From: Infirmifilum sp. NZ | Lineage (GTDB): Archaea > Thermoproteota > Thermoprotei > Thermofilales > Thermofilaceae | Length of the DNA stretch: 64,000 bases | NCBI RefSeq assembly: GCF_022693705.1 | Contig: NZ_CP094288.1 | Location: forward strand, 1,536,451-1,600,450 | Direction: 5' to 3' | Shown: piece by piece, positions 7,393-40,114 of the stretch | Numbering within the stretch: position 1 is the stretch's first letter | Layout of the letters: the number at the start of each line of letters is the position of its first letter | Notes under the pieces: model-generated | Told to the model about the DNA's origin: nothing | What the model saw: the letters and a program-made list of their open reading frames with translations, nothing else | Database searches by the model: none | Program-made: the position numbers and the translations under genes

Positions 7393-7572
7393 CTAAGCGC
7401 TCGGCAACAACGCTCCTCAAACCCTGCTGGTACTATCCCGGGGCTCAATCCTTCACCTGTATACGATTGTCTAGGGAGCAAGCAGGCTTAAGCTCAAAGG
7501 ACGCCCAGCCCGCAACATCAAAGGCTCTAACCCGCGTAAATCCTAATCCATAACTCTCGATGCGGGGCGCGG

Positions 7573-8478: not shown

Positions 8479-8498
8479 TTCGATCCCCGACTCATAAA

Positions 8499-9083
8499 CT
8501 ACCTCTGTCTCGATTTATTTTTACGCTTGACCAGCTCGGTCTCGAGCCGAACAACAGCCAACTTCCTGTAGGCGGCGAGCACGCCGACCGAAGCTGTGAA
8601 CGCGTAGAGGGTGAGGGCTACAGGCGTCAGCCTTATCCCCCACGGGGTATAGTTCAGCAGCAGCCCCAGCAGGGGCACCACGGCCAGCGAGAGACCGATG
8701 GACAGGGCGAGGCGCTCCAACGGGCTGAGCTCGCGCTCCGAAGGGTAGAGGGCCTCGACGAGCACGTAGCCAGGCAGGTAGAGGACGAAGAGCGAGCCGA
8801 AAACGTACCTGAGGACGGTGAGCGCGGGCTGGGCCCAGCTGAGGTACACTAGAAGCAGTGTCGCGGAGGAGAGCGTCAAGGTTGACCAGAACCACAGGCT
8901 GTAGTCAAGCCTAGCCAGGTACCCCGCCAGGCTTAACGGCGGGGAGGGGTCCACGAGCTCCACGGCCCCCCTGGAGACCTCCTCGTAGACCTCCCTGAGC
9001 ACCCTGTAGCTCAGCTTCCCGCGAGACCTGGAAGCCGCGTACTCCTCTAGCGTAGCCACGCTAAACACCCGGCCTGACGACAT
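8499..9083 (-). CDS. DUF1616 membrane protein, N-terminal membrane part
   Basis: The 194-residue protein has four membrane segments between about 60 and 175. FVLYLPGYVLVEALYPSE and LERLALSIGLSLAVVPLLG match the signature of DUF1616, an archaeal and bacterial membrane family often next to glycosylation genes. The first 55 residues look soluble. In many DUF1616 proteins an extracellular domain follows the membrane part; here that domain appears to be encoded by the overlapping upstream gene 9061-9555 instead. Biochemical function is not known for the family. It overlaps 9061-9555 by 23 bases, so translation is probably coupled. Confidence 0.75.
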   Translation of the reverse strand: MSSGRVFSVATLEEYAASRSRGKLSYRVLREVYEEVSRGAVELVDPSPPLSLAGYLARLDYSLWFWSTLTLSSATLLLVYLSWAQPALTVLRYVFGSLFVLYLPGYVLVEALYPSERELSPLERLALSIGLSLAVVPLLGLLLNYTPWGIRLTPVALTLYAFTASVGVLAAYRKLAVVRLETELVKRKNKSRQR

Positions 9084-22939: not shown

Positions 22940-24397
22940 GTGGAGCTCGAGGACTTCCTCAGGGGTACAGCGTGGCTCACAGCCGGCCAGCTAACCGCCA
23001 CCTTCATAGCCGGGCTCGCGTCGATAGCCATCGCGAGGATCCTCGGCCCCAGCGGCTACGGCCTCTACAGCCTCTCCATCTCCGCCGCAGGCCTCCTAGC
23101 CCTCCTCTCGTGGCTCGGCGTAGACCAGGCCGCAGTCAGGAAGGCCTCCCGAGACAGGCAGAGCTCGAAGCAGGTGCTCGACACAGCCCTGACGTTCGCC
23201 CTCCTAAACGCACTGGCAGTAGCCGCCGTCGGCCTCGCATCCTCTCAGCTCCTCGCTCAGGCCGTCGGGAGGCCCGAGCTCGCAGCGACGGTAGCCCTAG
23301 CCTCCCTCTCCGTAGCCCTGGCAATCCCGCTCGCCGCGGCCAACCTCCTCACGGCTGTGGGCAGGGCAGACGTCCCGGCGAAGGCGGGCGTCGCGCTCCA
23401 GCTCCTCAGGGCGGCCCTCGTCCCAAGCCTGGCGCTCGCCGCGGGCTACTACGGCGCAGTCACCGGGCACAGCGCAGCCTACCTCCTCGCCGCGCTCATC
23501 GCCCTAGCCCTCTACCGGAGGGCCACGGGCCCCTGGAGGCCCACCCTCACCGGCCTCAGAGAGCTCATCTCCTTCGGCGCGCCCCTCTGGCTCCCAGGGG
23601 TCCTCAGCACCCTGGTTGCCTTCGCCAGAACCGCCGCGACCGGCCAGCTCCTTGGGAACGCGGAGATCGGCGCCCTAGCCGCGGCGATGAACTTCTCGGC
23701 GCTCGCGGGCGTCCTCGTCACCCCCCTCTCCTCCATGGCCCTCCCCTACATCTCCTCCTCCAACGGCGGCGAGAGGCGAGCCCTCAGGCACGTCGTCAGG
23801 ACCTCAGCCCTCATCTCCGCACCGATAGCCGTCTACACCCTCCTATACGCGGAGCCCCTCGTCCAGGCGATCTACGGCGAAGCCTACAGCGCCGCTGCCC
23901 TCCCCCTCAGGATCCTCGCCCTCCAGTACCTCCTACCCCTCTTCGGCTCCACGGCCCTCACCCAGTACCTCGTCGCGCGGGGGGACAACAAGACAGTCCT
24001 CAAGGCCTCCATCGCCTCAAGCCTAACCCAGCTAGCCGCCATATACCCCCTCACCCTCTCCGCCCGGGCCCCGGGAGTCGCCGCCTCGATCATCCTCTCG
24101 CAGGCCGCGGGCCTCACGTACACCTATCTCAAAGCCCGGGAAAACGCCTTCGAGCCCACCCCCCTCCTACCAGCCCTCATAGCGGCCCTGCCCTCACTCC
24201 CCCTACTCCTAGCCGGAACCCACCCCCTCCTCAAGGCAGCCGCCGGGATGGCCGTCTACACAGCCAGCTACATCCTAGCCGCCCTCGCAACAGGCACACT
24301 CACCAGGGCCGAGGTCTCAACGCTCATCACCGCACTCCGCCCAGCAACCCTCAAGGCCCAACCCCCTCAACACCAGGGGCACAGCCCAGTGAGCTAA
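22940..24397 (+). CDS. Wzx-type polysaccharide flippase (MATE/MVF superfamily)
   Basis: The 485-residue protein has about 14 hydrophobic segments. The N-terminus reads LRGTAWLTAGQLTATFIAG and RILGPSGYGLYSLSISAAG, the signature of Wzx-like oligosaccharide flippases; APLWLPGVLS and YISSSNGGERRALRHVV lie mid-way. These proteins move lipid-linked oligosaccharides across the membrane. The position between glycosyltransferase loci fits export of the glycan made by the cluster. Start is GTG 22940. A second, shifted open frame of similar length (22972-24408) is a by-product of high GC. Confidence 0.88.
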   Translation: MELEDFLRGTAWLTAGQLTATFIAGLASIAIARILGPSGYGLYSLSISAAGLLALLSWLGVDQAAVRKASRDRQSSKQVLDTALTFALLNALAVAAVGLASSQLLAQAVGRPELAATVALASLSVALAIPLAAANLLTAVGRADVPAKAGVALQLLRAALVPSLALAAGYYGAVTGHSAAYLLAALIALALYRRATGPWRPTLTGLRELISFGAPLWLPGVLSTLVAFARTAATGQLLGNAEIGALAAAMNFSALAGVLVTPLSSMALPYISSSNGGERRALRHVVRTSALISAPIAVYTLLYAEPLVQAIYGEAYSAAALPLRILALQYLLPLFGSTALTQYLVARGDNKTVLKASIASSLTQLAAIYPLTLSARAPGVAASIILSQAAGLTYTYLKARENAFEPTPLLPALIAALPSLPLLLAGTHPLLKAAAGMAVYTASYILAALATGTLTRAEVSTLITALRPATLKAQPPQHQGHSPVS

Positions 24398-24456
24398 TCC
24401 TCAGTTAGCACTGGCCACGCGCCCCAGGCTCCAGGAGCTCGAGCGGCGAGCCGTCG

Positions 24457-24645
24457 GTGAGCGACGAGTACGCTCAGACCCTGCGCAAGAGGGCGCTGAG
24501 CGCGCTCAAGTGGGCGCAGAGAGCCTGCCAGGAGGGCGACTACGACACCTGCGCGCTGCCGGCGGAGTATGCGGCCCAGCTCTACCTGAAGAGCCTGATC
24601 TACCACGTCACCGGGGAGGTGCTTGAGGGTGGGAGGAGTGGATGA
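24457..24645 (+). CDS. HEPN-domain protein, short (probable N-terminal fragment)
   Basis: The 62-residue protein has the N-terminal two helices of a HEPN domain: LSALKWAQRACQEGDYD and EYAAQLYLKSLIYHVTGEV. The later helices and the R-x4-6-H motif are missing; the frame ends GGRSG-stop just before the MNT gene. It would normally be the toxin partner of the MNT protein encoded directly downstream (24647-24952). Because half the domain is absent I suspect a deletion remnant. Start GTG 24457. Confidence 0.6.
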   Translation: MSDEYAQTLRKRALSALKWAQRACQEGDYDTCALPAEYAAQLYLKSLIYHVTGEVLEGGRSG

Positions 24646-24646
24646 A

Positions 24647-24952
24647 ATGGTTGAAGGGGTCGTGAAGGCCATCAGGAGGCACATACCGGGTGCGAGGATA
24701 ATACTCTTCGGTTCCAGAGCGCGAGGAGACGCGTTGAAGGAGTCAGACATAGACCTCATCGTGGTGTCCAAGGCATTCGAGGGGATGGGCTTCACGGATA
24801 GAGCCACATACATTCTGAAGACCCTGTGGAGAGAGGGGGCGCTGCCGCCGGTAGACGTAGACCTGCTCTGCTACACGCCGGAGGAGTTCGAGGAGAGGAG
24901 GAGGGAGATAAGCGTAGTGAGTGAAGCGCTGAAGTACGGAGTAGAGCTCTAG
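24647..24952 (+). CDS. MNT nucleotidyltransferase-domain antitoxin
   Basis: About 101 residues with the minimal nucleotidyltransferase motif ILFGSRARGDALKESDIDLIVV: G-S, then D-x-D binding Mg-NTP. Partner MNT proteins neutralise HEPN RNase toxins, in studied systems by adding AMP groups. It starts just after the truncated HEPN gene. GTG 24638 is an alternative start behind the GGGAGG at 24630-24635; ATG 24647 is given here. The usual domain ends with EVSVVSEALKYGVEL-like sequence, as here, so this copy looks complete. Confidence 0.78.
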   Translation: MVEGVVKAIRRHIPGARIILFGSRARGDALKESDIDLIVVSKAFEGMGFTDRATYILKTLWREGALPPVDVDLLCYTPEEFEERRREISVVSEALKYGVEL

Positions 24953-25021
24953 CCGAGGACTGCAGTGAATCTGTAACGCCTCGAGGCGTCCGAATCTGCA
25001 GCGGGACCGGGGGATGAGGTG

Positions 25022-25465
25022 ATGAGGGTGGTTGACAGGGGGAAGCTGGTTGAAGTGCTTAGGAGGGTGGCGGAGAGGTATCCCCAGCTCAAGCTCATGT
25101 ACCTCTTCGGGAGCTACGCTGAGAGGAGGGCTGCGCCGGCGAGCGATATAGATATAGCCGTTGTAACAGCGAAGCCGAGCGTCATTCCGCATGTGGCGGC
25201 TGAATTGGCGGAGGAGCTCCAGATCCCCGAGGAGAAGATCTCCATCCTCGATCTGGAGTACGCATCGCCAGCACTCGTGGCGAGCATCCTGAAGAGGGGG
25301 GTCAAAATAGTGGACAGGGACGAAGGCTCTAAGCTGAAGCAGCTCAGCGAAAATGCTTACCCACAACCGAGCCGCGGATGCCCGAAGATGCAGAGCGGCT
25401 ACTCATCGATGCTAGCTCGGATCATGGCAGCCGCACAGGCTTCCCGGCGGGGGGTTGGCGCTTGA
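25022..25465 (+). CDS. MNT nucleotidyltransferase-domain protein
   Basis: The 147-residue protein has the MNT core: LMYLFGSYAERRAAPASDID, with G-S and D-x-D, and KISILDLEYASPALVASILK near 80-99, as in MNT proteins paired with DUF86-type HEPN toxins. The last 35 residues (after VDRDEGS) do not look like the family end and may come from frameshifted or recombined DNA. The stop overlaps the TTG start of the MNT-HEPN fusion gene. Start ATG 25022, with GTG 25019 directly before it. Confidence 0.72.
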   Translation: MRVVDRGKLVEVLRRVAERYPQLKLMYLFGSYAERRAAPASDIDIAVVTAKPSVIPHVAAELAEELQIPEEKISILDLEYASPALVASILKRGVKIVDRDEGSKLKQLSENAYPQPSRGCPKMQSGYSSMLARIMAAAQASRRGVGA

Positions 25466-26304
25466 TCAGGGTGTCTGACGAGGGCCTCGAGAAGCTCAGA
25501 GGCCTGGCCGCGAAGTACCCCAGCGTAGCGTTCCTGGCGATCACGGGCTCACTGGCAAGAAAGGGGCTCAGCACCCACGACTTGGACGTGGCGGTGAAGC
25601 TGAGCGAGAGAAGGGGGAAGTACGAAACGCTGGCATCCCTCCTAGCCGACATAGCCGGGATCCTGGGCATCCCGGAGGACCTCGTCGACGTAATAGACCT
25701 GGACCGGGCTGACCCCGAGGTCAAGGCCAGCATAGTCAGGAACTCCATCGTAATCATCGACAGAGGCTACTACGGAGAGCTGTTGAGGGAGGTGGACGAG
25801 GCCTTCAGGGAGTACGGCGAGTACAGGGAGCTCTCCATCAGGGAGTGGCTGCTATCGGAGGACCCCACATCGGTGGACCCAGCTGTCGTGAAGCGAAGGC
25901 TCGACTTCGTCAAGTCCGAGGCACGCTTCCTGCGGGAGGAGGTGCTCAAGAAACCCCTAGACGAGGTGAAAGGCTCACCGATCCTCAGCAGAGTCCTCGA
26001 GAGGGGCTACCAGCTCATCGTCGAGGCGCTGGTAGACGTAGCCAGGCATGTGGCTTCGTCCATGGGTTGGGGACCCTGCTTCACAGCGAAAGACTACGTC
26101 GAAAAGCTCGCCGAGCACGGTGTAATACCCGAAGAGTTGGCCAGCGAGCTCATCAAGAGGATAAGGCTGAGGAACATAATAATTCACCGGTACCTGGACG
26201 TGGACTACGACGAGCTGTACAGCGACGCACCCAGGCTCATAGCCGCGGCCGAGGAGTTCGAGAGGCACATAGCTAGGTTCCTCAGGAGGCGCGAGGGGCG
26301 GTGA
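25462..26304 (+). CDS. MNT-HEPN fusion protein (antitoxin and toxin domains in one chain)
   Basis: About 280 residues. The N-terminal half is an MNT domain (LAITGSLARKGLSTHDLDVAV near 26-46, with G-S and D-x-D). The C-terminal half is a DUF86-type HEPN domain with RIRLRNIIIHRYLDVDYDEL near 233-252; RNIIIH fits the R-N-x3-H active-site motif. I start at TTG 25462, which overlaps the TGA of the preceding MNT gene; an ATG at 25378 would overlap it far more. In most genomes these domains are separate genes, so a single chain is unusual. The likely role is self-controlled RNase toxicity. Confidence 0.75.
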   Translation: MIRVSDEGLEKLRGLAAKYPSVAFLAITGSLARKGLSTHDLDVAVKLSERRGKYETLASLLADIAGILGIPEDLVDVIDLDRADPEVKASIVRNSIVIIDRGYYGELLREVDEAFREYGEYRELSIREWLLSEDPTSVDPAVVKRRLDFVKSEARFLREEVLKKPLDEVKGSPILSRVLERGYQLIVEALVDVARHVASSMGWGPCFTAKDYVEKLAEHGVIPEELASELIKRIRLRNIIIHRYLDVDYDELYSDAPRLIAAAEEFERHIARFLRRREGR

Positions 26305-26730
26305 GCGCGCTGCGCACCGAGCCGCCGGCGGAGCGCGCCGGCAGGCCCTTCGTCGTGGTCCTCGCGAGGGACCGCAGGCACGTCGAAGAGAAGGCGGCGG
26401 AGCTCGAGCGCCTCGGCCTACCGTTCACCATCGTGTGTGGCGAGCGGCTAAACCACCAGCGCGTAGTCTACAGGGAGCCCAGGGGGAAGTGGGACACCAT
26501 AAACTTCGCCAGGCGGCTCGTCCCGAAGGACGCGGGCGTCGTCGTGCTCAACGACGTGGACACCAGGATCCACAACTTCTGGCACGCGCTCAGCCACCTC
26601 CACAGCGCCGACCTCGTCTACTGCAGGGTCGAGGTGACCCCAGGTGAAGTTCTACAGGATCGCGGTTCCAATCAGGGGGTTCAGAATCTTTCAGCGCGAG
26701 CTAACTTATAACCGAAGGAGAGGTAGCTAA
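26301..26730 (+). pseudogene. Frameshifted and truncated GT2 glycosyltransferase
   Basis: The first frame reads PFVVVLARDRRHVEEKAAEL, VVLNDVDTRIHNFWHALSHL and ADLVYCRVEVTP, the first half of a GT2 catalytic domain with its D-x-D. From about 26640 the similarity continues in the next frame as VKFYRIAVPIRGFRIFQREL and stops at TAA 26728. No acceptor-side half follows; the next GT4 gene starts 7 bases later. So this is a frameshifted N-terminal part. The start GTG overlaps the end of the MNT-HEPN gene by four bases, suggesting past translational coupling or recombination there. Confidence 0.6.
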
Positions 26731-26736
26731 AGCAGG

Positions 26737-27900
26737 GTGAGAGGCACGAACATACTCCTAGTCCCGCCCAACGACCTGATAAACAACGCCCTGCCGAACC
26801 GGCTTTACCACCTAGCCCGGCACTGGGCGGAGCGCCACAGCATCTACCTGCTGAGATACCCCAGCTACCCCATCTCGACAAGCATCGAAAGATTCCTGAG
26901 GCGCACAGACATCCTCCCCACCGCCAAGCCCGCCGGAAACCCCGGCACGTACTACCTCAAAAACGCGAAAGCCCTCTACGAGGCGCTGAAGAAAACCCTC
27001 GAGCGCGAGCCAGTAGAGGTCATCGTCCACGCGAACATCCTCCCATCGACGTTCGCCGTAAGGCTGGCCAGGAGGCAGGGGGTCAAGACAGTCTTCGACT
27101 ACCTCGACCACTACCCCGAGTCGGCGTCCGCCTACTACAGAAACAGGCTCGCAAAAAAGCTCGTGCACACGGCAGTCTACGCCATAACGATTTACAACCT
27201 GAGGAACAGTGACGAGGTGGTCACCGTATCCCACGCCCTGAAGCAACTCGTCGACAAGCACGCCAGGAGGCCAGCACACCTCATACCCAACGGCGTCGAC
27301 ACGAAGCTCTTCAAACCCACACCCAAGGAAACCGCGAGGAGAGAACTCGCCCTCGAGAACCACGACCCCATACTGCTCTACTACGGCTCAATCGCCGAGT
27401 GGATCGACTGGCAGGCACTACTCCAGCTCACAGCAAGGCTCAAGCCAAGACACCCCAAAGCACTCCTCCTCCTCGTAGGGAAAACCTACGGCCACCTAGA
27501 CCTCGAGATCAAGCAAAAAGCCAGGTCCCTGGGAGTAGAGGACAACGTCAAGCTCGTACCCCCACAGCCCCAGGAAAAGATCCCCACCTACATCTCAGCT
27601 GCAGACATAGTCTACGCGCCCTTTAAAAATATCCAAATGAACCTAGGCACACCTGTTAAGATTTTCGAATCTCTTTCCTGCTCTAGGCCTGTAATTGCAG
27701 CAGATCTTTATGAGTTCAAGCTGTGGTTTAAGGACTTTTTGCTGTACTACCGTGACATAAATGACCTAGAAAGTCTAACCCTACAGATTATCGACAACTA
27801 CGAAGAATACAGGAGCCTTGTGGAAAAGGCGAGGGAGTACGTCGAAATAAACTTCGATTGGAAAATCTTAGCACAAAGGTACGAGGAGGTTTTCTTATGA
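26737..27900 (+). CDS. Glycosyltransferase family 4, composition switches mid-gene
   Basis: The 387-residue GT-B enzyme begins TNILLVPPNDLINNALPNRLY. VFDYLDHYPESASAYYR lies at about 126, HLIPNGVDTKLFKPT is the linker, and LYYGSIAEWIDWQ starts the donor half. The donor Glu region is ADIVYAPFKNIQMNLGTPVK and KIFESLSCSRPVI at about 290-320. The first 870 bases are GC-rich like the upstream DNA; from about 27620 the coding sequence becomes AT-rich within one unbroken frame. The reading frame and motifs stay intact. It overlaps the 2-epimerase gene by four bases (ATGA). Confidence 0.84.
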   Translation: MRGTNILLVPPNDLINNALPNRLYHLARHWAERHSIYLLRYPSYPISTSIERFLRRTDILPTAKPAGNPGTYYLKNAKALYEALKKTLEREPVEVIVHANILPSTFAVRLARRQGVKTVFDYLDHYPESASAYYRNRLAKKLVHTAVYAITIYNLRNSDEVVTVSHALKQLVDKHARRPAHLIPNGVDTKLFKPTPKETARRELALENHDPILLYYGSIAEWIDWQALLQLTARLKPRHPKALLLLVGKTYGHLDLEIKQKARSLGVEDNVKLVPPQPQEKIPTYISAADIVYAPFKNIQMNLGTPVKIFESLSCSRPVIAADLYEFKLWFKDFLLYYRDINDLESLTLQIIDNYEEYRSLVEKAREYVEINFDWKILAQRYEEVFL

Positions 27901-29201
27901 GTTTAATGGTCGTCGCAGGTACGAGACCCGAGATAATCAAGCTAGCCCCCGTCCTATGGAACCTTCGACGCGAGGAGTACACCTTGGTGTGGAGCGGTCA
28001 GCACTACGACTACGAGATGAGCAAGGTCTTCTTTCAGGAGCTGGGAGTACCTGACCCCGACGTTGACTTAGGCGTCGGGAGTGGAAGCCATGCAGAGCAA
28101 ACCGCCAAGGCCATGATAGGACTAGAGAAAGTCATCAATGAACTCAGACCCAGAGTGGTCGTAGCGCTCGGCGACACGAACACGGCTCTGGCGGCAGCCC
28201 TCGCCTCCACCAAGTCACATGTACCCTTTGCTCACCTCGAAGCCGGCATGCGAAGCTGGGACAGAACAATGCCGGAGGAGATCAACAGAATAGTAGCCGA
28301 CCATATTGCAGACATTCTCTTCGCTTTCACACGGCTAGCCCAAATTTACTTGGTCCACGAGGGAATACCATACAGTAAGATCTTCGTAACTGGCAGTACC
28401 GAGGTCGACGTAATACGAAATTACGAAAGCGTAATCGATGAACGCGGCAAGGAATTAATCGAAGAGCATGGCTTAAACCCAGGAGAGTACGTGGTGGTCA
28501 CCGTTCATCGACAGGCTAGCACCGACGATCCGTCAACCCTTTCCCAAATAATCTCGGCACTAGTAGAAATTTCAAGAAAGTACAGGTTCAAGGTAGTTTT
28601 CCCAGTCCACCCCAGAACCAAGAAGGCCATACAGGCTTACAGCCTAGAGCAAGCACTCCAATCAGAAAACATTCTTCTACTACCACCACTCGGCTTCTTC
28701 GAATTCCTAGGCCTGCTTAAGCACGCCCGAGTCGTGCTCACAGACAGCGGCGGCGTACAAGTAGACACATGCACCTTCAAAGTACCCACCGTTATACTAA
28801 GGTACAACACAGAATACCCCGAGTGCATTGCCCTCGGAGTATCGGAGCTAGCAGGAACGCAGAAAGAAGATATACTATCCACCTTCGAGCGAGCCCTAAC
28901 AAAGAGAATAAGCAAATGCACGCAAAACCCATTAGGCGACGGGAGAGCCGGCGAAAGGATAGCTCGTATCCTCAATAAAGCAGACGTAAAAATCGAGGCG
29001 CCGGATCTAAGAACCTCGCCCCTCGTGCTTTACCGCTTAGTTGCCCAACCCCTCCCGGATGACCTAGTTCTAGCGTGGTACGACCGCCTCGGCTGTCCCT
29101 TGGCTCGCGAAAGCAGCCACTTCCTAGTGAGAAGAAAGCACGATCCACACCACTTTGATGAAACCATCTTTAGCATGTTCGAACAAAAACAAGAAAGCTA
29201 A
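27897..29201 (+). CDS. wecB: UDP-N-acetylglucosamine 2-epimerase (non-hydrolysing)
   Basis: About 434 residues from ATG 27897, which overlaps the GT4 stop as ATGA. Family motifs: VVAGTRPEIIKLAPV at the start, VVALGDTNTALAAALAS, HLEAGMRSWDRTMPEEINR, VTGSTEVDVI, VTVHRQAS, VFPVHPRTKK and LTDSGGVQVD. The non-hydrolysing enzyme interconverts UDP-GlcNAc and UDP-ManNAc, giving the precursor of ManNAc and ManNAcA residues. Typical WecB proteins are about 360-380 residues; here about 60 extra residues follow the usual end (from APDLRTSPLVLYRL). It feeds the glycan locus. Confidence 0.92.
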   Translation: MSLMVVAGTRPEIIKLAPVLWNLRREEYTLVWSGQHYDYEMSKVFFQELGVPDPDVDLGVGSGSHAEQTAKAMIGLEKVINELRPRVVVALGDTNTALAAALASTKSHVPFAHLEAGMRSWDRTMPEEINRIVADHIADILFAFTRLAQIYLVHEGIPYSKIFVTGSTEVDVIRNYESVIDERGKELIEEHGLNPGEYVVVTVHRQASTDDPSTLSQIISALVEISRKYRFKVVFPVHPRTKKAIQAYSLEQALQSENILLLPPLGFFEFLGLLKHARVVLTDSGGVQVDTCTFKVPTVILRYNTEYPECIALGVSELAGTQKEDILSTFERALTKRISKCTQNPLGDGRAGERIARILNKADVKIEAPDLRTSPLVLYRLVAQPLPDDLVLAWYDRLGCPLARESSHFLVRRKHDPHHFDETIFSMFEQKQES

Positions 29202-29377
29202 GTCATGCTTTCCCCACCGACAGTACTGATACTAAGCCACGAGTACCCCTACCTCTCTGAAGTAGAGGGTCATATACTTAGGAACAGTTAGTATGTCTTT
29301 TTTGGCATGAAATCAGAACGCATCGTTGCTAGCAAGGTTGATGAGAAGCATTATGTACTCCGTTCTAAGTGCATACC

Positions 29378-30283
29378 ATGACCTTAGTGAGCGTTATAGT
29401 TTCGACCAAAAATAATAGAATAACAATACCCTTCGTCTTAGATTCCATTAGAAGACTTTCTAAACAGTATATCGTTGAACTGATAGTAGTCGATGGGATG
29501 TCCGATGATGGAACGTACCAATTCGCCGCGAACTTTCTAGCTCAATTCAAGAACGACTTCTACAATGTCAAGCTTTTGCGCGACCCAGGAACCTCCCTCT
29601 CACTCTCACGTAACATGGGTTTCGTGCATTCAACAGGAGACTTTCTCGTATTCCTTGATGGCGACATGATCCTGCACCCCGAATTCGTAGAGAACTTCGG
29701 GAGAGTGCTCTCAGGCGAGTACGACGCCATCGCTCCTCGCCTTGAGGTTCTAAGACTCGAACGATTTACCTCGATCTTCAACGCGTTCATAGACGTAGTA
29801 TCCGAGGGAGAGCTGAACCTGAACAAGCCTTCCATAATTCCTCAAGCACGAATCTTCTCACGCAGAGCCCTAAGCAAGATACATGGCTATCCCCCGCTCT
29901 CCCGGTACTTCGGGGAAGACAGGTGCGCGACGGCCCTGGCAACGATTCAAGGCATGAAATACGTGTACATGCCCACGCTGAGGATAATCAAAGTCGATGA
30001 GCCCTCTTTCGCGGCGTACCTCAGAAAGCACATGAGATACGGGGAAGGAATAGAAAAAGACCTAACGAGCGGCGGAAGAAGAGTTCTCCGCGACTACATA
30101 GTTCTCAGGAGGCTAACTTACCTTAATCTAATCGCCCCATTGCTCTCAATGCTTTATGCACTAAGACTCCTGCGAGTTTCTCGCAGCGCCGGACTGGCAG
30201 ATTTCCTATCTGTATTTACGATGAAATATACCATTGACTTAGCAATGCTCATCGGAGAGATAAAAGGATTGATCAAACATTAG
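29378..30283 (+). CDS. Glycosyltransferase family 2
   Basis: About 301 residues with GT2 motifs: VSVIVSTKNNRITIPFVLDS, IVELIVVDGMSDDGTYQFAA, SLSRNMGFVHSTGDFLVFLDGDM, where DGD is the metal site, and a later SRYFGEDRCATALA holding the ED acidic pair. One or two weak hydrophobic segments near 245-265 could anchor it to the membrane. The start may be GTG 29369 or ATG 29378. AT-rich DNA. Probably transfers a sugar in assembly of the cluster's glycan. Confidence 0.84.
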   Translation: MTLVSVIVSTKNNRITIPFVLDSIRRLSKQYIVELIVVDGMSDDGTYQFAANFLAQFKNDFYNVKLLRDPGTSLSLSRNMGFVHSTGDFLVFLDGDMILHPEFVENFGRVLSGEYDAIAPRLEVLRLERFTSIFNAFIDVVSEGELNLNKPSIIPQARIFSRRALSKIHGYPPLSRYFGEDRCATALATIQGMKYVYMPTLRIIKVDEPSFAAYLRKHMRYGEGIEKDLTSGGRRVLRDYIVLRRLTYLNLIAPLLSMLYALRLLRVSRSAGLADFLSVFTMKYTIDLAMLIGEIKGLIKH

Positions 30284-30410
30284 ATGCTATTTGAAAGTTC
30301 TATACACGAATCTTCACACAGTAAAAATAACGCTACTGTCTCTAGGAGAATCAGGAAAATGCACGGCGCATAGGTGCCTTTGACTGGCACACATTTATAA
30401 AATAAGGTAT

Positions 30411-31097
30411 ATTATAGTTTTTTACGGCATTGATGGTAGTGGAAAATCCACGATAATACACTATCTTTCCAATGTTCTCAGAAAATGTTCATACAATGTT
30501 AAGGTCGTTAGGATGAGAGGTCATCATACAATAATGTATGTTCTTATACGATTTCTTTTCCGGATAAAGAGAATAGACTACAAATTTGCAAGAGGTAAGC
30601 CCCTGTACTTGAATTACATGGTATCAAAATATTTCAAAAGCAAAAAGTTCTATATTCTACTCGAAATTGCGGGAGTTTTAGTGTGGTTTATTGTGAAGAT
30701 ATTCCCTCTTGCAGTCTTGGCAACTTTATACAAGGACGAGATCTTAATTATAGCCGATAGGTATGTCCCTGATTTCGTAGTTTTGATGTCACTGACCTCA
30801 AAAATAAGTAACAACGACATGGTCAGGATTGCCCGTTTTTTAGAGAGGATCCAACCATTAAGGCCTCTCTACTTTTACGTTTATGCTGATCCCTCAATAG
30901 CATTAAAGCGAAAGTCTGAAGAACGATTAACCATGTCATTTTGCAATCTCATGGATACAAAATATCAGGCTTTAAATAAATTCATACATCCAGTGCTACT
31001 AATCGATACTACCAATAAGAGGCCTGTGGAAATACTTCCAATAATTATCAGAGAATTGAATAAACACGGTATTATATCGAGGTGCCCTGAGTCTTGA
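30411..31097 (+). CDS. P-loop kinase, thymidylate-kinase-like, with non-canonical start
   Basis: The frame contains FYGIDGSGKSTI, a perfect Walker A of the thymidylate-kinase type, at 30423-30458, upstream of the first ATG (30513). Going back from the P-loop the frame is open only to a TGA at 30381, and no ATG, GTG or TTG lies between. An ATT at 30411 would give M-IVFYGIDGSGKST, the normal family N-terminus, so I place the start there. Later motifs are ADRYVPDFVVL (lid region) and YADPSIALKRKSEER, giving 228 residues, normal for the family. Related proteins in archaeal glycan loci may phosphorylate a sugar or nucleoside. The next gene starts as TTG overlapping its TGA. Confidence 0.62.
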   Translation: MIVFYGIDGSGKSTIIHYLSNVLRKCSYNVKVVRMRGHHTIMYVLIRFLFRIKRIDYKFARGKPLYLNYMVSKYFKSKKFYILLEIAGVLVWFIVKIFPLAVLATLYKDEILIIADRYVPDFVVLMSLTSKISNNDMVRIARFLERIQPLRPLYFYVYADPSIALKRKSEERLTMSFCNLMDTKYQALNKFIHPVLLIDTTNKRPVEILPIIIRELNKHGIISRCPES

Positions 31098-32146
31098 ATA
31101 AGATACACAGAGATAATGTAGTGGCATTAAGAATCGTTGTAGATAATTGCATGGGAAAACTTAATCTAGAAGCGTTTCCAAGCATAAAAATCAAGGAAAT
31201 TTCTAGTAAGGTTTTCCAGATAGCTAAGGAAGGAAAAGTTTTATCATCTCTGCACACTTTGTTTGATTTATTTTCAGAAACTCATAGGTCGTATCTTAGG
31301 AAAAGAATAGAGCTAACACAGTTATACCTCAAACAGCTGAAAATGATAGCTGAAGAGCTAAACAGTAATGGAATAGAGTATTACGTTTTCAAAACCATTA
31401 AGCCCTTCCCCTACGATATGACTGATATTGATCTACTGTTTACTGATAAGGTCTCAATGCTTAAGGCTTCAACGATCATCATTGGAAAACTTGGGTATAA
31501 GGCAGTTAGCAAGGGAACCTATTCATTAACGCTTCGTAGAACGATAAATGGTTACGATATAGACGTAGATTTGCAACCTGGAATCTACGTTGGAACCCTT
31601 GGCTACATTAAAGTGATAAAGCTTAAGGAAGTAATCAGCGAATTAGGCTACTTCAAGGAAAGCATACATATTCTTAGACCAGAGCTAGAACTCGCAGTTA
31701 TAGCAGGACACTCTACCTTTAAGGATTTTTCAATAAGCTTAGCTAACGTTATGCATGCCGACTACATACTGGGAACAATTGATGAAGAAGCACTGCTATC
31801 CATACTTAGGTACAATATACATCTAGTTAAACCAGTTATAATAGTATATAGCATAGTTAATGCCTTAAAGAACGTTATTGAACTAAGTTCAGGTAAGAAG
31901 ACGATAAAGCCAGGGAACCACATTGAAGCATTGATTATAAATCAGCTCATGAAAGGCAGAGGCAACCTTGTTATACCACTTAAAGCATCTGTCGAAACCT
32001 ACTTGGATACGTTCCAAGCTTTTTTAAAATATCACGAGTATGGGAGTCTCTTAGAAATGATTAAATTACCTAGTTCTAGAGGAATAGGCATCCTATTTAG
32101 GAGAGTAAAATTGTTACCGTATGATAGTGATCCCATCAATGTCTAG
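31094..32146 (+). CDS. Nucleotidyltransferase family protein (NTP_transf_5-like)
   Basis: The 350-residue protein has EYYVFKTIKPFPYDMTDIDLLF around 95-116 and later YDIDVDLQPGIYVGTLGY. The D-I-D and D-V-D pairs fit the metal motif of the uncharacterised nucleotidyltransferases often placed in glycan loci (PF14907-like). The rest is helical. It starts at TTG 31094 over the stop of the kinase-like gene, so the two are coupled; kinase plus nucleotidyltransferase would fit activation of a sugar or polyol. The activated product is not known. Confidence 0.62.
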   Translation: MNKIHRDNVVALRIVVDNCMGKLNLEAFPSIKIKEISSKVFQIAKEGKVLSSLHTLFDLFSETHRSYLRKRIELTQLYLKQLKMIAEELNSNGIEYYVFKTIKPFPYDMTDIDLLFTDKVSMLKASTIIIGKLGYKAVSKGTYSLTLRRTINGYDIDVDLQPGIYVGTLGYIKVIKLKEVISELGYFKESIHILRPELELAVIAGHSTFKDFSISLANVMHADYILGTIDEEALLSILRYNIHLVKPVIIVYSIVNALKNVIELSSGKKTIKPGNHIEALIINQLMKGRGNLVIPLKASVETYLDTFQAFLKYHEYGSLLEMIKLPSSRGIGILFRRVKLLPYDSDPINV

Positions 32147-33362
32147 AAGGTTCAATATCGTTTACTCGCTTGAACCTAGGAACATACGAGATGTAAGTGT
32201 AGCATTTCTAACACTTGATTATTTTAACGATAATGTAATAGAGGGCCATCGAATTCTTTCTAAGAGAATTATTGATGCAGTTAAAAGAAATACGAGTTTA
32301 AGTACCTACATCTTCTCGCTGGAGACAGCACGAAATCTATTACCTCAAGAAAAGATCCATTTTAAACGACTTGTTCCAAGTGTTTGGGAGTGGATGACAT
32401 CAACATACAAGATTTTCGAGAAGTTGAAAACGGTTGATGTGGATATAGTTCATATCCTTTCATATAGTAGCGTCTTCCCAGCGCTTTTAAATAAATTGAC
32501 CCCGTCAAGAAGTAAAGACTTCAGAATAATCGCTCATATATATTATGGTCCAGATGCTTTTAAGCTTCTGCAATATAAATTTACAGAGCTTCTCCTTTTA
32601 ATGAAGTCTTTCGAAGCCGTGATAGCTACCTCTAAATTGCTTAAGGAATTTCTGGTAAAAAGAACAAAGCTAACAGATAAAATGACTTTCTACATTCCTC
32701 CCATAGTTCCAAAGAAGTTTTTTGATTTTGATTACAATTCATTAAGAAGTTCTACAGGAAAATACAAGAAACTCTTTGGACTTAAAGAAGATGATTTCGT
32801 AATATCTTACATCGGGCATATAACTCCTCAACGAGGCGTGTTCGAGCTTTTAAAGGCTTTTAATAAAGCACTAGGAAGTAATAGTCGTCTGAGACTAATT
32901 ATCTCACCCACTAACATAGTATATCAAGATTTATCGCTAGATTATCTTTCCATATTAGAAATGCTGATCAAAAAGTACGGCTTAAATCATAGGGTGCTGA
33001 TAGTCGAAAAACAAGACCCGATTCAACTATTCGCTATGTCAGATGTCCTTTTCTTAGGCTTCGATAAAACCTTCTTCTTTACTTTCCCCCCTTTAATAGC
33101 TTGTGAAGCGGTGGCAAGCGGAATGCCAGTCATCCTCAAGCAGTCTCCACTAGTATACGAGCTCTTTAGTACTGAAAAATCCTTACCGATTTACAAGGAT
33201 CTCGACGAGTTAACAGATATAATACTTGACTTAGCTGATAACAAAAATAGGCTCTCCGATATATCGCTAAGGGTTAAGGCCGAGGCAGTAAGAAAGTTTA
33301 TGCCAGAACAACTTGTTTCAAGATTATTAAAAGTTTATATGAGTTTAACAGGTGATTACTAG
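32121..33362 (+). CDS. Glycosyltransferase family 4, divergent
   Basis: The 413-residue GT-B protein has a variable acceptor half (VDIVHILSYSSVFPALLNKL near 110, AVIATSKLLKEFLVKRT near 175) and a donor half starting VISYIGHITPQRGVFELLKAF. The terminal region FPPLIACEAVASGMPVILK holds the E-x7-E equivalent (ACEAVASG). ATG 32139 is an alternative start. It overlaps the preceding gene by 26 bases and touches the next GT4 gene at the stop. AT-rich. Confidence 0.74.
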   Translation: MIVIPSMSRRFNIVYSLEPRNIRDVSVAFLTLDYFNDNVIEGHRILSKRIIDAVKRNTSLSTYIFSLETARNLLPQEKIHFKRLVPSVWEWMTSTYKIFEKLKTVDVDIVHILSYSSVFPALLNKLTPSRSKDFRIIAHIYYGPDAFKLLQYKFTELLLLMKSFEAVIATSKLLKEFLVKRTKLTDKMTFYIPPIVPKKFFDFDYNSLRSSTGKYKKLFGLKEDDFVISYIGHITPQRGVFELLKAFNKALGSNSRLRLIISPTNIVYQDLSLDYLSILEMLIKKYGLNHRVLIVEKQDPIQLFAMSDVLFLGFDKTFFFTFPPLIACEAVASGMPVILKQSPLVYELFSTEKSLPIYKDLDELTDIILDLADNKNRLSDISLRVKAEAVRKFMPEQLVSRLLKVYMSLTGDY

Positions 33363-34495
33363 TGAGGATAATCTATATAGGGCCAATGGATATTCCTATC
33401 CCCAGCGAAAAAGGCGCTGTAGAGGAAATAATATGGCAACTATCATTAAAGCTTTCTAGCAACGGTTTTAAAGTAAGCATATATAATCCTATAGCATCAA
33501 ATACGCTATCTAAAGTTTTCAAGAGCATTGTCTTACATGGTATTGATTGCGATAACTGCATTCTGCATTTTCACGATTTAATAGCATGCGGTAGCTATAG
33601 CTCTATAATTCGCTACAGCTACAAAAGTATTTTACTATCACTTCATTATCCCCCCTGGTTCGCTAGATCTAGTTTTCGCCACTTAGCACTACGTTTCCTC
33701 TTGAAGTATCTTAAATCTAGACAAACGATATTTGTTGCACCATCACGAGTAATCACAAACTGGATTAAAAGAAGAATAGGCGGCACTGCAGTATTCATAC
33801 CTAACGGGGTTGATACTTCAATTTTTAACCCGGTGAAAAGAAGCCTTGAAGTTCGAGAAAAAATGATTAAGGGCAAAGACGTAGATGTTTTAGTGTGTTA
33901 TGTTGCAAGAGTACATCCAAGTAAGAACCAGCTAGATCTTTTAAAGGCTGCTAGAATTCTTGTGTCTTCTGGTATTAAAAACTTTAGGCTTATATTCATA
34001 GGTCCTCTTCACGGACGATTCGGAAAACAGGGAGGAGAATTCAAATATTTTGAATCATTGCGCCAATATATTGAAAAACACAACCTTGAGAAATTTGTGG
34101 AGTTTTTAGGCGAGATCCCTCATCACGACGATGTGGCATCATATATGGCATCATGCGATATATATGTTCATCCATCTATAATTGAGGCGGCGGCCCCATT
34201 AGCAATATTAGAGGCTTTAGCGTCTGGATTACCTGTTGTTGCCTACAATCTAGTATACTATCTTGATTACCTGAAAAATCATGAAAATGCCATACTAGTA
34301 GATAAGGGCGATGTAAAGGCTTTAGCAGGGGCTTTAGAATCGCTAATAACCCAGCCTATACTAAGAAAGCACTTAGGGGAAAATGGGAGACGTTTCGCCG
34401 AAAGAGAGCTTTCATGGGAAAATATTGTGAAAAAGTACTATATCCCATTATATAATAAGCTCGAACAGAATACGTATTCCTCAGATCATGGCTGA
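33362..34495 (+). CDS. Glycosyltransferase family 4
   Basis: The 377-residue protein begins MRIIYIGPMDIPIPSEKGAV, has HFHDLIACGS, then AVFIPNGVDTSIFNPV as linker and VCYVARVHPSKNQLDLLKAA opening the donor half. The donor site is VHPSIIEAAAPLAILEALAS, with E-x7-E. Complete GT4 layout. It starts at GTG 33362 on the last base of the preceding gene and overlaps the next gene by eight bases; transcription as part of one long operon is likely. Confidence 0.86.
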   Translation: MRIIYIGPMDIPIPSEKGAVEEIIWQLSLKLSSNGFKVSIYNPIASNTLSKVFKSIVLHGIDCDNCILHFHDLIACGSYSSIIRYSYKSILLSLHYPPWFARSSFRHLALRFLLKYLKSRQTIFVAPSRVITNWIKRRIGGTAVFIPNGVDTSIFNPVKRSLEVREKMIKGKDVDVLVCYVARVHPSKNQLDLLKAARILVSSGIKNFRLIFIGPLHGRFGKQGGEFKYFESLRQYIEKHNLEKFVEFLGEIPHHDDVASYMASCDIYVHPSIIEAAAPLAILEALASGLPVVAYNLVYYLDYLKNHENAILVDKGDVKALAGALESLITQPILRKHLGENGRRFAERELSWENIVKKYYIPLYNKLEQNTYSSDHG

Positions 34496-35634
34496 GTCCG
34501 AAGACACCATAGCAGTCTTTACTTTTCCATTGCCTTCCCCAACCAATTATGCGCTACTAGCTAATCTAGCAACCATTCTTTCATGGGTATATAAACGAGT
34601 AATAATTATCACAGGCAGTTTTGTATCACATCTCCCTGATATAATAGGAGACTTAAAGTATTCTAATAAAAAATCTATTTACGTCTATGACTTTAAATAT
34701 AAGTTGCCCCCAAGAGGTGGCAATGCTAGTGTATTGACGAAGTTCTTCGCCTATGTTAGAATCCAGCTCAGCTTCATTGTTGCTGTGTTAAAGCTACGCT
34801 CTAATTTTAATACAGCGTTATTTTTCATCGGCGTTCCCGACATGCTTATGGTGTTGATCATTTTACGATTACTCAGAAAGAAGGTAGTAGTGTATTGATT
34901 AATAAAAAGATCCGTTCATGACTGGCCTTAGCCTTAAGTTAGCAATTAGACTATCTGATGCAGTTATTACAGAAATTATCGATCCGTCCTTCGAGGACCC
35001 GATTAAGTTGAGATACTCGAAAATAAGGCTACCGCTAGCACTAAGATTTATTGATGTAAAGAAGTTTAATATAATCAAGCAGATTACGGATAGATTCTAT
35101 GATATAGGTTTCGTAGGAAGGCTTGAACGAGAGAAGGGTATAGACCTATTAATTCCCGCCCTTAAATCCCTATACAAGGAGGGGCTAATGCCCCGTGTAG
35201 TTATAGTAGGAGATGGCAGTCTCAGAAATATAGTGGAAGCTTCATTATCGAACCTGCATGTTGATGTCATGTCGTATGTTCCTCATGAGAAATTACCTTA
35301 CATATATAATAAAATGAAGATCATAATTTTACCGTCGAGAAAGGAGGGTGTACCTACAGTTTTATTGGAAGCCCTAGCCTGCGGTGTCATACCAGTTGCC
35401 TCAAGAGTTGGAGGGATACCTTGGTTAATCCGGAAAGCTAATACGGGTATACTACTAGATGATCTTAGTTATCACAGTATCGCTAAAGCACTTAAATATC
35501 TACTAGGGCTCGACGTAATGAGGTTAAAGGAGATGTCTCAAAACGGTAGGAATTTCATTGAGAAGTTTTTAGTATTGGAGGAAGCAGTGAGGCGATACAG
35601 TTTAATTAAAAAAGTGCTAAAATACATACCATGA
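34488..35634 (+). pseudogene. Split GT4 glycosyltransferase
   Basis: Two neighbouring frames encode the two halves of a GT-B enzyme. The first (34488-34898) is an acceptor-side Rossmann half ending LRKKVVVY-stop (TGA 34896). The second (34918-35634) opens with LKLAIRLSDAVITEI and has IGFVGRLEREKGIDLL and LPSRKEGVPTVLLEALACGV, the donor half with E-x7-E. Reading through the TGA gives another stop within 40 bases, so at least two changes separate the halves. Possibly both halves are made and associate, but a decayed gene is simpler. The last bases overlap the start of the next gene. Confidence 0.58.
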
Positions 35635-37361
35635 AAATATTGGTAAAACCACTAGTATTCCTGCTTCTATCAACGAGTATAGTATTTCTGTTGGCTATTG
35701 GTGTTATAATTCAGATTCCTCTCATTGCGTATTTAGGTTTATGTCTACTTGGATTAAACATCATTCTTTCGATCATGTATGGGGAGCAACTAAAGCATTC
35801 TCTGCTAATTTTCATATTGGTTATATTATCATTTACTCTCGCCTTATCTTATGAAAGCATCTCGTATTACCCCCTTGGCGAAGATGTTCATTCCGAGTAC
35901 TACGTTTTGAAGAGCTTACTAAATAAAGATCATGTAGAGTTACTGAAAGAAGCTAGTATACCCGAATTATTATCGCCGCCCCCATATTATTACGAAATAT
36001 ACAGCTACATATTCTTCTCATTAATATTCAAGTACATTACAATGATGGATGAAGTGGTCATCATAAAATACATCTGGAACACTTGCATTTTAGGGTTAAT
36101 ACCGCTAGTAACGTATCTATATATTAAGAAGGCGACGGGCAATACTGCTTCTGCCTTGATCGGTAGCTACTTAATTATTTCTCAATCCACTTATGTGGTT
36201 ACATTGCATTCTACATCGAAAAATGTGGCAGGTCTCTTCATGCTTGGCTTACTGTTGTATTCATTTATGAGTTATTTAGGCGATCAAAGGTCACGGCGTC
36301 CTACTGGTGTCATCTTGATCCTCATTCTTATATCCTTTAATGGCTTTCACTATATGTCTTCGGGTATAGGGGCGTTAATAAGTTCTTTAGCCATAATACC
36401 TTTGCTTCTTACATACAAGTGGTATGGAAGTGAAGTGCCTTCCTCTCAAAAATTCGTTATGACTTTAACACTGCTCTGGATGATATCCTGGTTTCTAACA
36501 TATGCTCTTCTCACAAACAGTATTATTAAGCCACTTATAAATCTTGTTACAAACCTTTTATACTTAACACCTCTACCCCACGGTTATGAACTTATTAACG
36601 TTTCTTCCTTACCGACATACTTGAACTACTTAAGGTTGCTTGTAGATGCCCTGATTTCCCTTCTTATACTTATGGCTGGTTTAGATTCTTCTATAAACTT
36701 ATTAAGAAATAGAGGAGGTTTTATAGACTCTCTAATAGCAGTTGCAGCATGTTTGTTTTATATATCATCTGCCGCGGAAATATTCAAACTTACAACTATT
36801 GGTGTTGGACGTTTGTCCATAATCTACATACTTATTATCTCCCCCTATCTCTACAAATCTATTGTCACGATTTTCTTACGAAAAATTCCATTTAGGAGAT
36901 ATATGAAAAATACAATAATACTATTGACACTAGCAATAATTATAAGTACTAGAATAATGCTCTCAACAGGTGCGGTATCTTATGCCATGGGTAGTGTTGA
37001 GAGCAGTATTTTTCTAGATCCATTATATAGGTATAAAACAAGTGTAACCTACGCAGATATAAAATCGGCTGTCTTACTTAATGAGTACTATTCAGATGTG
37101 AAACCTGTTGTCTTAGATTTAAAGTCCATTGACGTCTTTCACTACGTTGAGAACCTAAGGTACTTTACTGTTAAGCTGCTTCCTTTGTCTGAAAACCGTT
37201 CTGAGCTAGGTTCTGACATAGTATATTTCAATTCGCATAATCTCCTCGTGGGCAAGATTCATGTCCGTGTTAACGTATTCATCGATTATAATGAATATCA
37301 TTATTTGAATGAAGTAAAGTCATTAGTGTTCAATTACGGATATTCTATTATCCTTTATTAA
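35631..37361 (+). CDS. Multi-spanning membrane protein, DUF2206/GT-C-like
   Basis: The 576-residue protein has about 12 predicted spans from residue 8 to about 435 and a soluble outside C-terminal part. After the second to third span it has YPLGEDVHSEYYVLKSLL, an acidic D-x-H-S-E-Y loop typical of DUF2206 and related GT-C-like archaeal proteins. A-LHSTSKNVAGLF lies near 190. GT-C enzymes transfer a sugar from a lipid carrier on the outer face. It overlaps the split GT4 gene by four bases. Function as polymerase or glycosyltransferase is inference. Confidence 0.65.
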   Translation: MKILVKPLVFLLLSTSIVFLLAIGVIIQIPLIAYLGLCLLGLNIILSIMYGEQLKHSLLIFILVILSFTLALSYESISYYPLGEDVHSEYYVLKSLLNKDHVELLKEASIPELLSPPPYYYEIYSYIFFSLIFKYITMMDEVVIIKYIWNTCILGLIPLVTYLYIKKATGNTASALIGSYLIISQSTYVVTLHSTSKNVAGLFMLGLLLYSFMSYLGDQRSRRPTGVILILILISFNGFHYMSSGIGALISSLAIIPLLLTYKWYGSEVPSSQKFVMTLTLLWMISWFLTYALLTNSIIKPLINLVTNLLYLTPLPHGYELINVSSLPTYLNYLRLLVDALISLLILMAGLDSSINLLRNRGGFIDSLIAVAACLFYISSAAEIFKLTTIGVGRLSIIYILIISPYLYKSIVTIFLRKIPFRRYMKNTIILLTLAIIISTRIMLSTGAVSYAMGSVESSIFLDPLYRYKTSVTYADIKSAVLLNEYYSDVKPVVLDLKSIDVFHYVENLRYFTVKLLPLSENRSELGSDIVYFNSHNLLVGKIHVRVNVFIDYNEYHYLNEVKSLVFNYGYSIILY

Positions 37362-37424
37362 TAAGCTCATTCTTCCGAATAAATGAGGCGAGAAATTGAT
37401 TATATGGTATGGTGATAATTATTT

Positions 37425-38525
37425 ATGAATGATGATCTAAAATTCGTAAAAATAGTTGTAGTTACTCCTTTTCCATTTATAGCTACCGAAATCGGTAATA
37501 AACTCGCTAGGAGAGGGTTATCAGTACTTGTTATCACATCCTCGAAAATTAAAGAATATAAGGAAGCAGAATTTGAGAAGGAAGTTAGGGTAATATTCCT
37601 AGGCAGGAATATGATGCTAGATTTAGTAAAAGCATTGGTTGCTCTTTTTTCTTTCAAGCCACATATAATTCTAATGTACAGCGGTGGTGGTGTACTTGGA
37701 TTACTGATGTTCCCACTAGTTAGAATATGTCAGATATTTTATGGGGTTTACACAGTTAGTTATGTTATGGAGCCTATTCCAAGAATAGGTATTAAAAATC
37801 CTCTCATAGCGTGGATTGAAACCGTATTAGAGGTGAAATTTGCCAATTTAATAATCACGGATGCGGAGAAACTTAAGCGTTTACTGTTAAGGTTTCATAA
37901 AATATCTCCTTCAAAAGTTGCGGTGTTTACAAATGAGTGGGACGCTCCTTATTTCTATAGATACAAAGTAAAAGAAGAAGGCGAGAAGAAATGGATACTA
38001 TTCTTTGGGACAGTCCAGGAATATAAGGGCCTGGAATATCTTATACGTGCCGAGCCTTTAATCACGGAAAAATATCCAGAAGTAAAAATAGTTATCGCGG
38101 GTAGTGGTCAGGAAAAATATTACTCTATGATAAGAGATAGGAGTAAGTATATATTACTCAACAAGTTTATAAGTTACAAGTTGGGAGCATGTCTTTTTCA
38201 AAAATCTATGATCATCGTATTGCCTTACACGATGGGTACAGTAAGTGGAATAATACCCGTTGCTTACGCGTTCAAAAAACCTATAATTGCAACAAGAGTG
38301 GGGAGTTTTGATGAAGTAATAGAACATGGAAAAACCGGTATACTGATCCCCCCTCAAAATCCTAAAGCACTTGCAGAAGCTGTAATAATGCTTTTAGAGA
38401 ATACAGAAATGAGGAAAAAACTGGGAGAAGCTGGTTTCTCTAAACTTAAATCAGAAATGTCATGGGATGTATTTATAGATAAATTTATGAAAACGGTGCT
38501 GAAGACATGGAAAAGCTCTTCATAA
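37425..38525 (+). CDS. Glycosyltransferase family 4
   Basis: The 366-residue protein has IVVVTPFPFIATEIGNKLA at the start, a hydrophobic KPHIILMYSGGGVLGLLMFP (about 83-104), WILFFGTVQEYKGLEYLI opening the donor half, and PIIATRVGSFDEVIEHGKTG with LIPPQNPKALAEAV near the end. The usual E-x7-E glutamate segment reads LPYTMGTVSGIIPVAYAF, so both glutamates are replaced. That could alter activity or mark a divergent subfamily. Complete, AT-rich, with a short gap on both sides. Confidence 0.76.
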   Translation: MNDDLKFVKIVVVTPFPFIATEIGNKLARRGLSVLVITSSKIKEYKEAEFEKEVRVIFLGRNMMLDLVKALVALFSFKPHIILMYSGGGVLGLLMFPLVRICQIFYGVYTVSYVMEPIPRIGIKNPLIAWIETVLEVKFANLIITDAEKLKRLLLRFHKISPSKVAVFTNEWDAPYFYRYKVKEEGEKKWILFFGTVQEYKGLEYLIRAEPLITEKYPEVKIVIAGSGQEKYYSMIRDRSKYILLNKFISYKLGACLFQKSMIIVLPYTMGTVSGIIPVAYAFKKPIIATRVGSFDEVIEHGKTGILIPPQNPKALAEAVIMLLENTEMRKKLGEAGFSKLKSEMSWDVFIDKFMKTVLKTWKSSS

Positions 38526-38582
38526 AAAAGCCACTATTGCAGACATATTTAAAATATATAATTTTTACAAGGAGATAAGTAG

Positions 38583-39002
38583 ATGCAAAAACATCATTAA
38601 GTATTACAGGAAGTATCCTCAGGGCATTCTGGGGGATATCTTTTCTTAGTAAGATTATTCCACAGTATATTAAATAAAAACACAATCTTGCTTCTGGTCT
38701 CAGGTCCCAGAGTAACGGGAATATGTCATGTCGACATATATGGAAAGGAGGGAATCCTTGGCATTGCCATTTTAGAGAGTTTTCAAGGTAGAGGTTTAGC
38801 GAAGGTTCCCCTACGCTACGCGATTAAACTCGCTAAAGAATTAGGGTTAGAAAGAATTAGATCTGTGGACATAGACAATTATCGGGCTATTTCTCTATAT
38901 AAGACTTTAGGCTTTAATATAATTAGGCGAATAAACAATTGCAGTCGTAGTTTTAGAAATAGCTTTGTTGATTGCTATGAAATGGAAATAAAACTTTTAT
39001 AG
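38583..39002 (+). pseudogene. GNAT acetyltransferase with early in-frame stop
   Basis: ATG 38583 follows an AAGGAG ribosome site, but its sixth codon is TAA (38598). The same frame then stays open to 39000 and contains GIAILESFQGRGLAKVPLRY (GNAT motif A, Q-G-R-G-L-A) and NYRAISLYKTLGFNIIRRI (motif B). Without the stop the protein would be 139 residues, a normal GNAT length. The only long ORF left (TTG 38688) lacks the N-terminal strands. It sits beside the gmd and perosamine-synthase-like genes, so it may once have acetylated an amino sugar. A sequencing error at the stop is possible. Confidence 0.58.
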
Positions 39003-39031
39003 CTTTTTTAACCATTGTTACCTTAGCGATC

Positions 39032-39039
39032 AAGAGAGG
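39032..39039 (+). promoter_or_regulatory. Ribosome binding site of gmd
   Basis: GAGAGGAG lies 8 bases before ATG 39047; with a CTTTTATAGC box at 38994-39003 the gmd transcript has a leader, unlike most genes here. Confidence 0.5.
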
Positions 39040-39046
39040 AGAAACC

Positions 39047-40108: not shown

Positions 40109-40114
40109 AAGGAT

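Follow-up and report, generated by a model that had tools for sequence, protein, structure and literature searches.

A candidate Shine-Dalgarno-led CUG start for a dTMP-kinase-like gene in an archaeal glycan cluster

Where does translation begin in a gene whose conserved N-terminus is preceded by no canonical start codon? The question is raised by a P-loop kinase gene in the 64,000-nucleotide stretch of Infirmifilum sp. NZ DNA analysed here (the window), whose frame is open from an in-frame TGA onward and ends at 31097. An earlier note on this DNA had placed the motif GIDGSGKST in that frame and had found no ATG, GTG or TTG between the TGA and the P-loop; the translated frame and a codon listing bear out both statements (Table 1). 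The 14 codons before the P-loop read CTG GCA CAC ATT TAT AAA ATA AGG TAT ATT ATA GTT TTT TAC, none of them canonical, the first P-loop glycine is GGC at 30426, and the earliest in-frame ATG lies past the P-loop, so that a gene call restricted to ATG, GTG and TTG starts at 30513 and loses the P-loop. In a three-frame listing, frame 0 holds GTG 30374 and TTG 30380 and is closed by TAA 30398, and the third frame holds TAA 30403 and TAG 30415; the other two frames do not rescue a canonical start unless the frame changes. Five codons of the stretch are near-cognate starts (CTG, ATT, ATA, ATT, ATA), and the first of these, the CTG directly after the TGA, went unmentioned in the earlier note. Our leading but tentative reading, held with less than even confidence and favoured over a dead gene, is that the kinase is translated, probably weakly, from this non-canonical CTG.

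Table 1. Features around the start of the kinase gene, in window coordinates.
Feature	Position	Strand	Basis or remark
dTMP-kinase-like P-loop kinase ORF, read from CTG	30384..31097	+	237 codons plus stop; open frame, PF02223, fold
In-frame TGA directly before CTG	30381..30383	+	Codon listing, three-frame listing
CTG, favoured start candidate	30384..30386	+	AGGTG at register -11
AGGTG, Shine-Dalgarno match to 16S tail GGATCACCTCCT	30372..30376	+	16S tail, register profile
ATT, start proposed in the earlier note	30411..30413	+	Present; SD and TATA spacing unfit
TATA-box-like TTTATAAA	30394..30401	+	3 matches in the window against 0.48 expected; TATA profile
P-loop GIDGSGKST	30426..30452	+	Translated frame
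First in-frame ATG, after the P-loop	30513..30515	+	ORF listing
Nucleotidyltransferase-like gene	31094..32146	+	Weak PF14907 match below cut-off; TTG start overlaps kinase stop; recurrent kinase neighbour

Beyond its start, the protein is predicted to have an otherwise intact dTMP-kinase-like fold. It just reaches the cut-off of PF02223 (Thymidylate_kin; 27.8 bits against 27), scoring best over the P-loop region, and falls far below that of the dTMP kinase equivalog TIGR00041 (38.7 bits against 83.25). An AlphaFold2 model built on nine aligned sequences has a mean pLDDT of 80 and a pTM of 0.78, and its best PDB matches are dTMP kinases, with that of S. tokodaii at the top (4rzx, E 3.6e-7). In the model, strand 1 spans residues 7-14 counted from the CTG and the P-loop (residues 15-23) follows directly, while residues 1-4 of the CTG-start version have a pLDDT below 50. 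Eighteen columns are invariant among the nine aligned members, including the P-loop, E94, R126 and D130.

The case for CTG 30384 lies in what stands upstream of it. We profiled starts in 236 long ORFs of this genome, taken from 16 stretches of 20 kb and the window, with the first canonical codon of each ORF taken as its start, which makes the profile noisy. Matches of at least 5 nt to the tail of the 16S rRNA, GGATCACCTCCT as taken from the genome itself, peak at register -12/-11 (28 of 63 such matches), GGTG peaks at -12 and -11 (9 and 17), TATA peaks at -30 to -24 (28 together), and 100 of the 236 starts have no Shine-Dalgarno (SD) match of 4 nt. CTG 30384 has AGGTG at -11, the genome's preferred spacing, and no in-frame ATG, GTG or TTG upstream of the conserved N-terminus, as an SD-led CUG start should. 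Its distance to the P-loop glycine is 14 codons, at the upper end among relatives (13 in L019, 15 in L058).

An SD at this strict spacing precedes the first canonical codon in 28 of 236 ORFs (in 37 of 236 if every canonical codon among the first 40 is considered). Among interior CTG codons it precedes 27 of 2104; for interior codons of any kind the figure is 932 of 70999, about 1.3% per codon. We spotted the AGGTG match ahead of these controls. It spans no more than 5 nt and could have fallen before any of five near-cognate codons; at the interior rate this puts the chance of such an SD closer to 6% than to 1%. When the local sequence was shuffled by dinucleotides, a near-cognate codon gained such an SD in 145 of 20000 shuffles, and in 192 of 20000 when the upstream part alone was shuffled. 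Upstream of the first canonical start, strict SDs precede 2 of 39 CTG codons, which is not above the 2 of 38 for ATA (0 of 31 for ATT, 62 of 2558 for any codon), and CTG starts therefore show no sign of being common here. The TATA-like box lies downstream of the CTG; if that box is a promoter, its mRNA would not contain the CTG. The predicted fold of 30340-30440 was not better than that of shuffles (z 0.58).

Two further observations concern CTG codons and leaders in this genome. A 29-codon ORF (30284-30373) follows immediately on the stop codon of the upstream glycosyltransferase gene and overlaps AGGTG at its end, an arrangement that could permit termination-reinitiation at CTG 30384. Elsewhere, on the minus strand of L095 (~8475 of the reverse complement), a CTG in frame, led by a strong SD (GGAGGGGTGA) and five codons upstream of the earliest canonical start, is another possible CTG start.

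Published work indicates the scale of such events. Two reports on aIF1 of S. solfataricus describe the factor as favouring discrimination against non-canonical starts (PMC6237735, PMC8211752). In a reconstruction of ancestral starts, 61,358 AUG codons gave two switches to CUG and one to AUU, 5,080 GUG codons one to each, and 2,468 UUG codons one to CUG (PMC5622118). Titles and the beginnings of abstracts yielded no demonstrated archaeal start at AUU, CUG or another non-AUG codon. In our judgement, use of the CTG and death of the gene are rare events of similar size.

To place the start among those of its relatives we surveyed a phylum-wide sample, in which 65 kinase matches at E 1e-12 or better were found in 50 of 398 genomes. 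A readable P-loop frame was present in 62 of the 65, the window gene included; the matches in G028, G134 and G074 have no intact P-loop frame and were left out. All 61 other relatives carry an in-frame ATG, GTG or TTG upstream of the P-loop, so that the CTG itself is not conserved in this sample; every canonical codon was counted as a candidate start where a relative has several. A canonical codon lies at most 15 codons upstream in 59 of the 61 (45 codons in L070, 62 in L075), and in L006/L012 the candidate is TTG. Outside the 65-match sample, L007 (G025:C60, minus strand, upstream of ~1170), from a 52%-complete genome of another family of the order, has no ATG, GTG or TTG over the 38 codons before its P-loop. 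Its only upstream CTG is 21 codons before the P-loop and has no SD at -12/-11, and so lends no support to a conserved codon. We consider it improbable that this glycan-cluster kinase family tolerates or uses starts other than AUG, GUG and UUG to hold synthesis low, with the window gene (CUG plus SD) and L007 as independent instances.

Closer comparisons returned little. No DNA match to 30230-30520 was found in any of the 16 other genomes of the family (E 0.01), a protein search gave no relatives of the kinase in viral contigs, a first scan of genome contigs with the single window protein gave no relatives, and megablast of 29369-32146 against plasmids gave nothing. The same-species genome G013 does carry a kinase, 31% identical, ~22 kb further on in the contig that holds its DNA matches to the window. 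Those matches, within window 24000-31000, reach 90-91% only at ~24.16-24.64 and 26.35-26.68 kb, with one additional match of 70% at 27.9-28.3 kb.

The surroundings of the kinase suggest how it came to this position. The preceding gene encodes a glycosyltransferase and has a GC content of 47.5%, and GC stays low from the kinase to ~41 kb. G322, a genome from another family of the phylum, holds a cluster of similar make-up, in the order kinase (26% identical), glycosyltransferase, split GT4, large ORF and GT-GNAT fusion, after which come genes related to the GDP-mannose dehydratase (84%) and the DegT-type aminotransferase (75%) of the window; the large ORF of G322 has no detectable similarity to that of the window. 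Judged by the GC content and the G322 match, the kinase seems to head a glycan block that moved horizontally, and the junction region before it could be the place where a start was lost. We also observed that the 90-91% matches to G013 end at ~26.7 kb and that a second fall in GC comes at ~30.3 kb; window ~26700-41200 is probably a strain-variable glycan island.

We considered the split GT4 gene of the block (34488-34898 and 34918-35634) as a sign of decay and rejected it, as G322 has the same two-ORF split. There, in L041, the halves lie at 7320-7751 and 7767-8519 and are 27% and 37% identical to those of the window, and the break falls at the same place in both archaea, after ...VVVY and ...IVWY; shared by two archaea so distant, the split looks conserved and not a break. 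A different picture is given by the GNAT acetyltransferase region (window 38503-39002), the frame of which is broken between ~38503 and 38648; the G322 counterpart (L041 10280-11983) joins GNAT and the glycosyltransferase before it in a single ORF.

The rival explanations divide into other start codons and no start at all. The earlier note proposed ATT 30411, which gives MIVFYGIDGSGKST, as the normal family N-terminus, with a dead gene as the alternative. The dichotomy between a non-standard start and a dead gene holds up, but the ATT itself is poorly supported by SD, TATA and strand 1, and we regard it as a very unlikely start. AUU starts do exist, as the switches from one ancestral AUG and one ancestral GUG attest (PMC5622118), and in L053 the sole canonical start is likewise five codons before the P-loop glycine; the candidates of the relatives, however, mostly lie 6-13 codons before it, so the claim of a normal N-terminus holds in part. 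When the alignment is extended by two residues, Met1 of T. maritima Tmk aligns with the TAT before ATT 30411. Upstream of the ATT there is just AGGT (4 nt) at 30405, at register -5 against the genome peak of -12/-11, and the TATA-like box would begin at -15, a position used by none of the 236 starts, so that neither an SD nor a leaderless promoter stands at the right distance. The SD misfit only lowers the standing of ATT 30411, since 100 of 236 starts here do without a 4-nt match, and a start there would also cut three residues off predicted strand 1, which begins earlier. A leaderless transcript from the TATA-like box would be predicted to start at ~30420-30426, where there is no start codon. 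Nor can a mutated first codon, as the earlier note had it, be placed at 30413 in particular, because the stretch holds five near-cognate codons. We give a comparably slight probability to a present or former start at one of the remaining codons (ATA 30402, ATT 30393, ATA 30414, GTT 30417). ATA 30402 stands 8 codons before the P-loop glycine, a distance common in the family, and is one transition from ATG; GTT 30417 is preceded by AGGT (register -11) and TATA (-21). Against them, neither ATA 30402 nor ATT 30393 has a properly placed SD, and starts at 30414 or 30417 would drop four or five of the eight residues of predicted strand 1.

The most serious competitor of the CTG, though the less probable of the two, is a dead or dying gene, in which the canonical start has been mutated away or cut off at the junction of the AT-rich block and the kinase is unmade or yields a P-loop-less fragment from ATG 30513. 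In its favour, GC falls over the intergenic region, from 47.5% in the preceding gene through 40% in 30284-30383 to 36% in the kinase, and the same block carries the acetyltransferase region whose frame is disrupted when set against G322, where GT and GNAT form one ORF. All 61 sampled relatives keep a canonical start. Of the nine aligned members the kinase has diverged furthest: it has lost 10 of 28 residues that do not vary among the other eight, against 0-8 of 28-36 for each of the eight when counted equally. Against this, the 223 codons from the P-loop glycine on contain no internal stop, the P-loop and other invariant residues are retained, the neighbouring genes of the block are mostly long open ORFs, and an SD stands at the correct spacing before CTG 30384. 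Internal stops, frameshifts and loss of catalytic residues, by which a pseudogene would be recognized, were not found in the kinase, and loss of the start alone would look the same as an alternative start. A sequence error is unlikely: a wrong base or one-base indel in 30374-30400 would hide a canonical start, for example by parting GTG 30374 or TTG 30380, both in the adjacent frame and open as far as 30398, from the kinase frame. The frame changes in the acetyltransferase region could be errors too, but the genome is one contig of 1.83 Mb, estimated to be 99.9% complete. We also tried to rescue a start with an indel in the T6 run that precedes the P-loop and rejected this on the three-frame listing, in which each of the other two frames is stopped shortly upstream with no start codon beyond the stop.

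Returning to initiation at CTG 30384, we picture the gene as belonging to a dTMP-kinase-like family found in archaeal surface-glycan clusters and as having probably arrived with the AT-rich glycan block. The SD AGGTG, 7 nt upstream, would set the ribosome on the CTG, and initiator Met-tRNA would read CUG through a first-position mismatch to give M-AHIYKIRYIIVFYGIDGSGKST. Both the transcript containing 30372-30386 and the use of CUG are steps that we infer.

If the CTG (or the ATT) is used, gene finders limited to ATG, GTG and TTG truncate the kinase to a piece that lacks the ATP site, and the gene would offer a direct test of the strictness of archaeal aIF1 against non-canonical codons. If the kinase is dead, it would be one more sign of post-arrival decay in horizontally moved glycan blocks. 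Whichever reading holds, a single gene is at stake and not a new kind of system.

Set against prokaryotic non-AUG initiation at AUU and CUG, the window gene likewise combines a near-cognate codon with an SD; its CTG is a candidate from sequence, whereas known cases such as E. coli infC are demonstrated and conserved. If it is used, this would to our knowledge be the first SD-directed CUG initiation in a crenarchaeon. With the thymidylate kinase superfamily (PF02223; TIGR00041) the protein shares the P-loop, the D-R-Y stretch and the fold, and its structural neighbours are the dTMP kinases of Sulfolobus tokodaii, Thermus and Aquifex. Unlike dTMP kinase proper, it is encoded in a glycan cluster beside a nucleotidyltransferase, a location that probably points to another substrate. 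Among the kinase members of glycan-cluster pairs that we looked at, the window gene and L007 alone have no canonical start. Of 29 kinase loci fetched, 22 (L004, L005, L007 and L033 among them) have a nucleotidyltransferase relative in the neighbourhood of the kinase, often directly beside it, a count in which two of the loci supplied query sequences and the genes are not adjacent in some. As in the kinase and nucleotidyltransferase pairs of archaeal glycan clusters (L004, L005, L033), the nucleotidyltransferase-like gene of the window lies directly downstream of the kinase, and this recurring neighbour places the kinase in a recurrent two-gene module.
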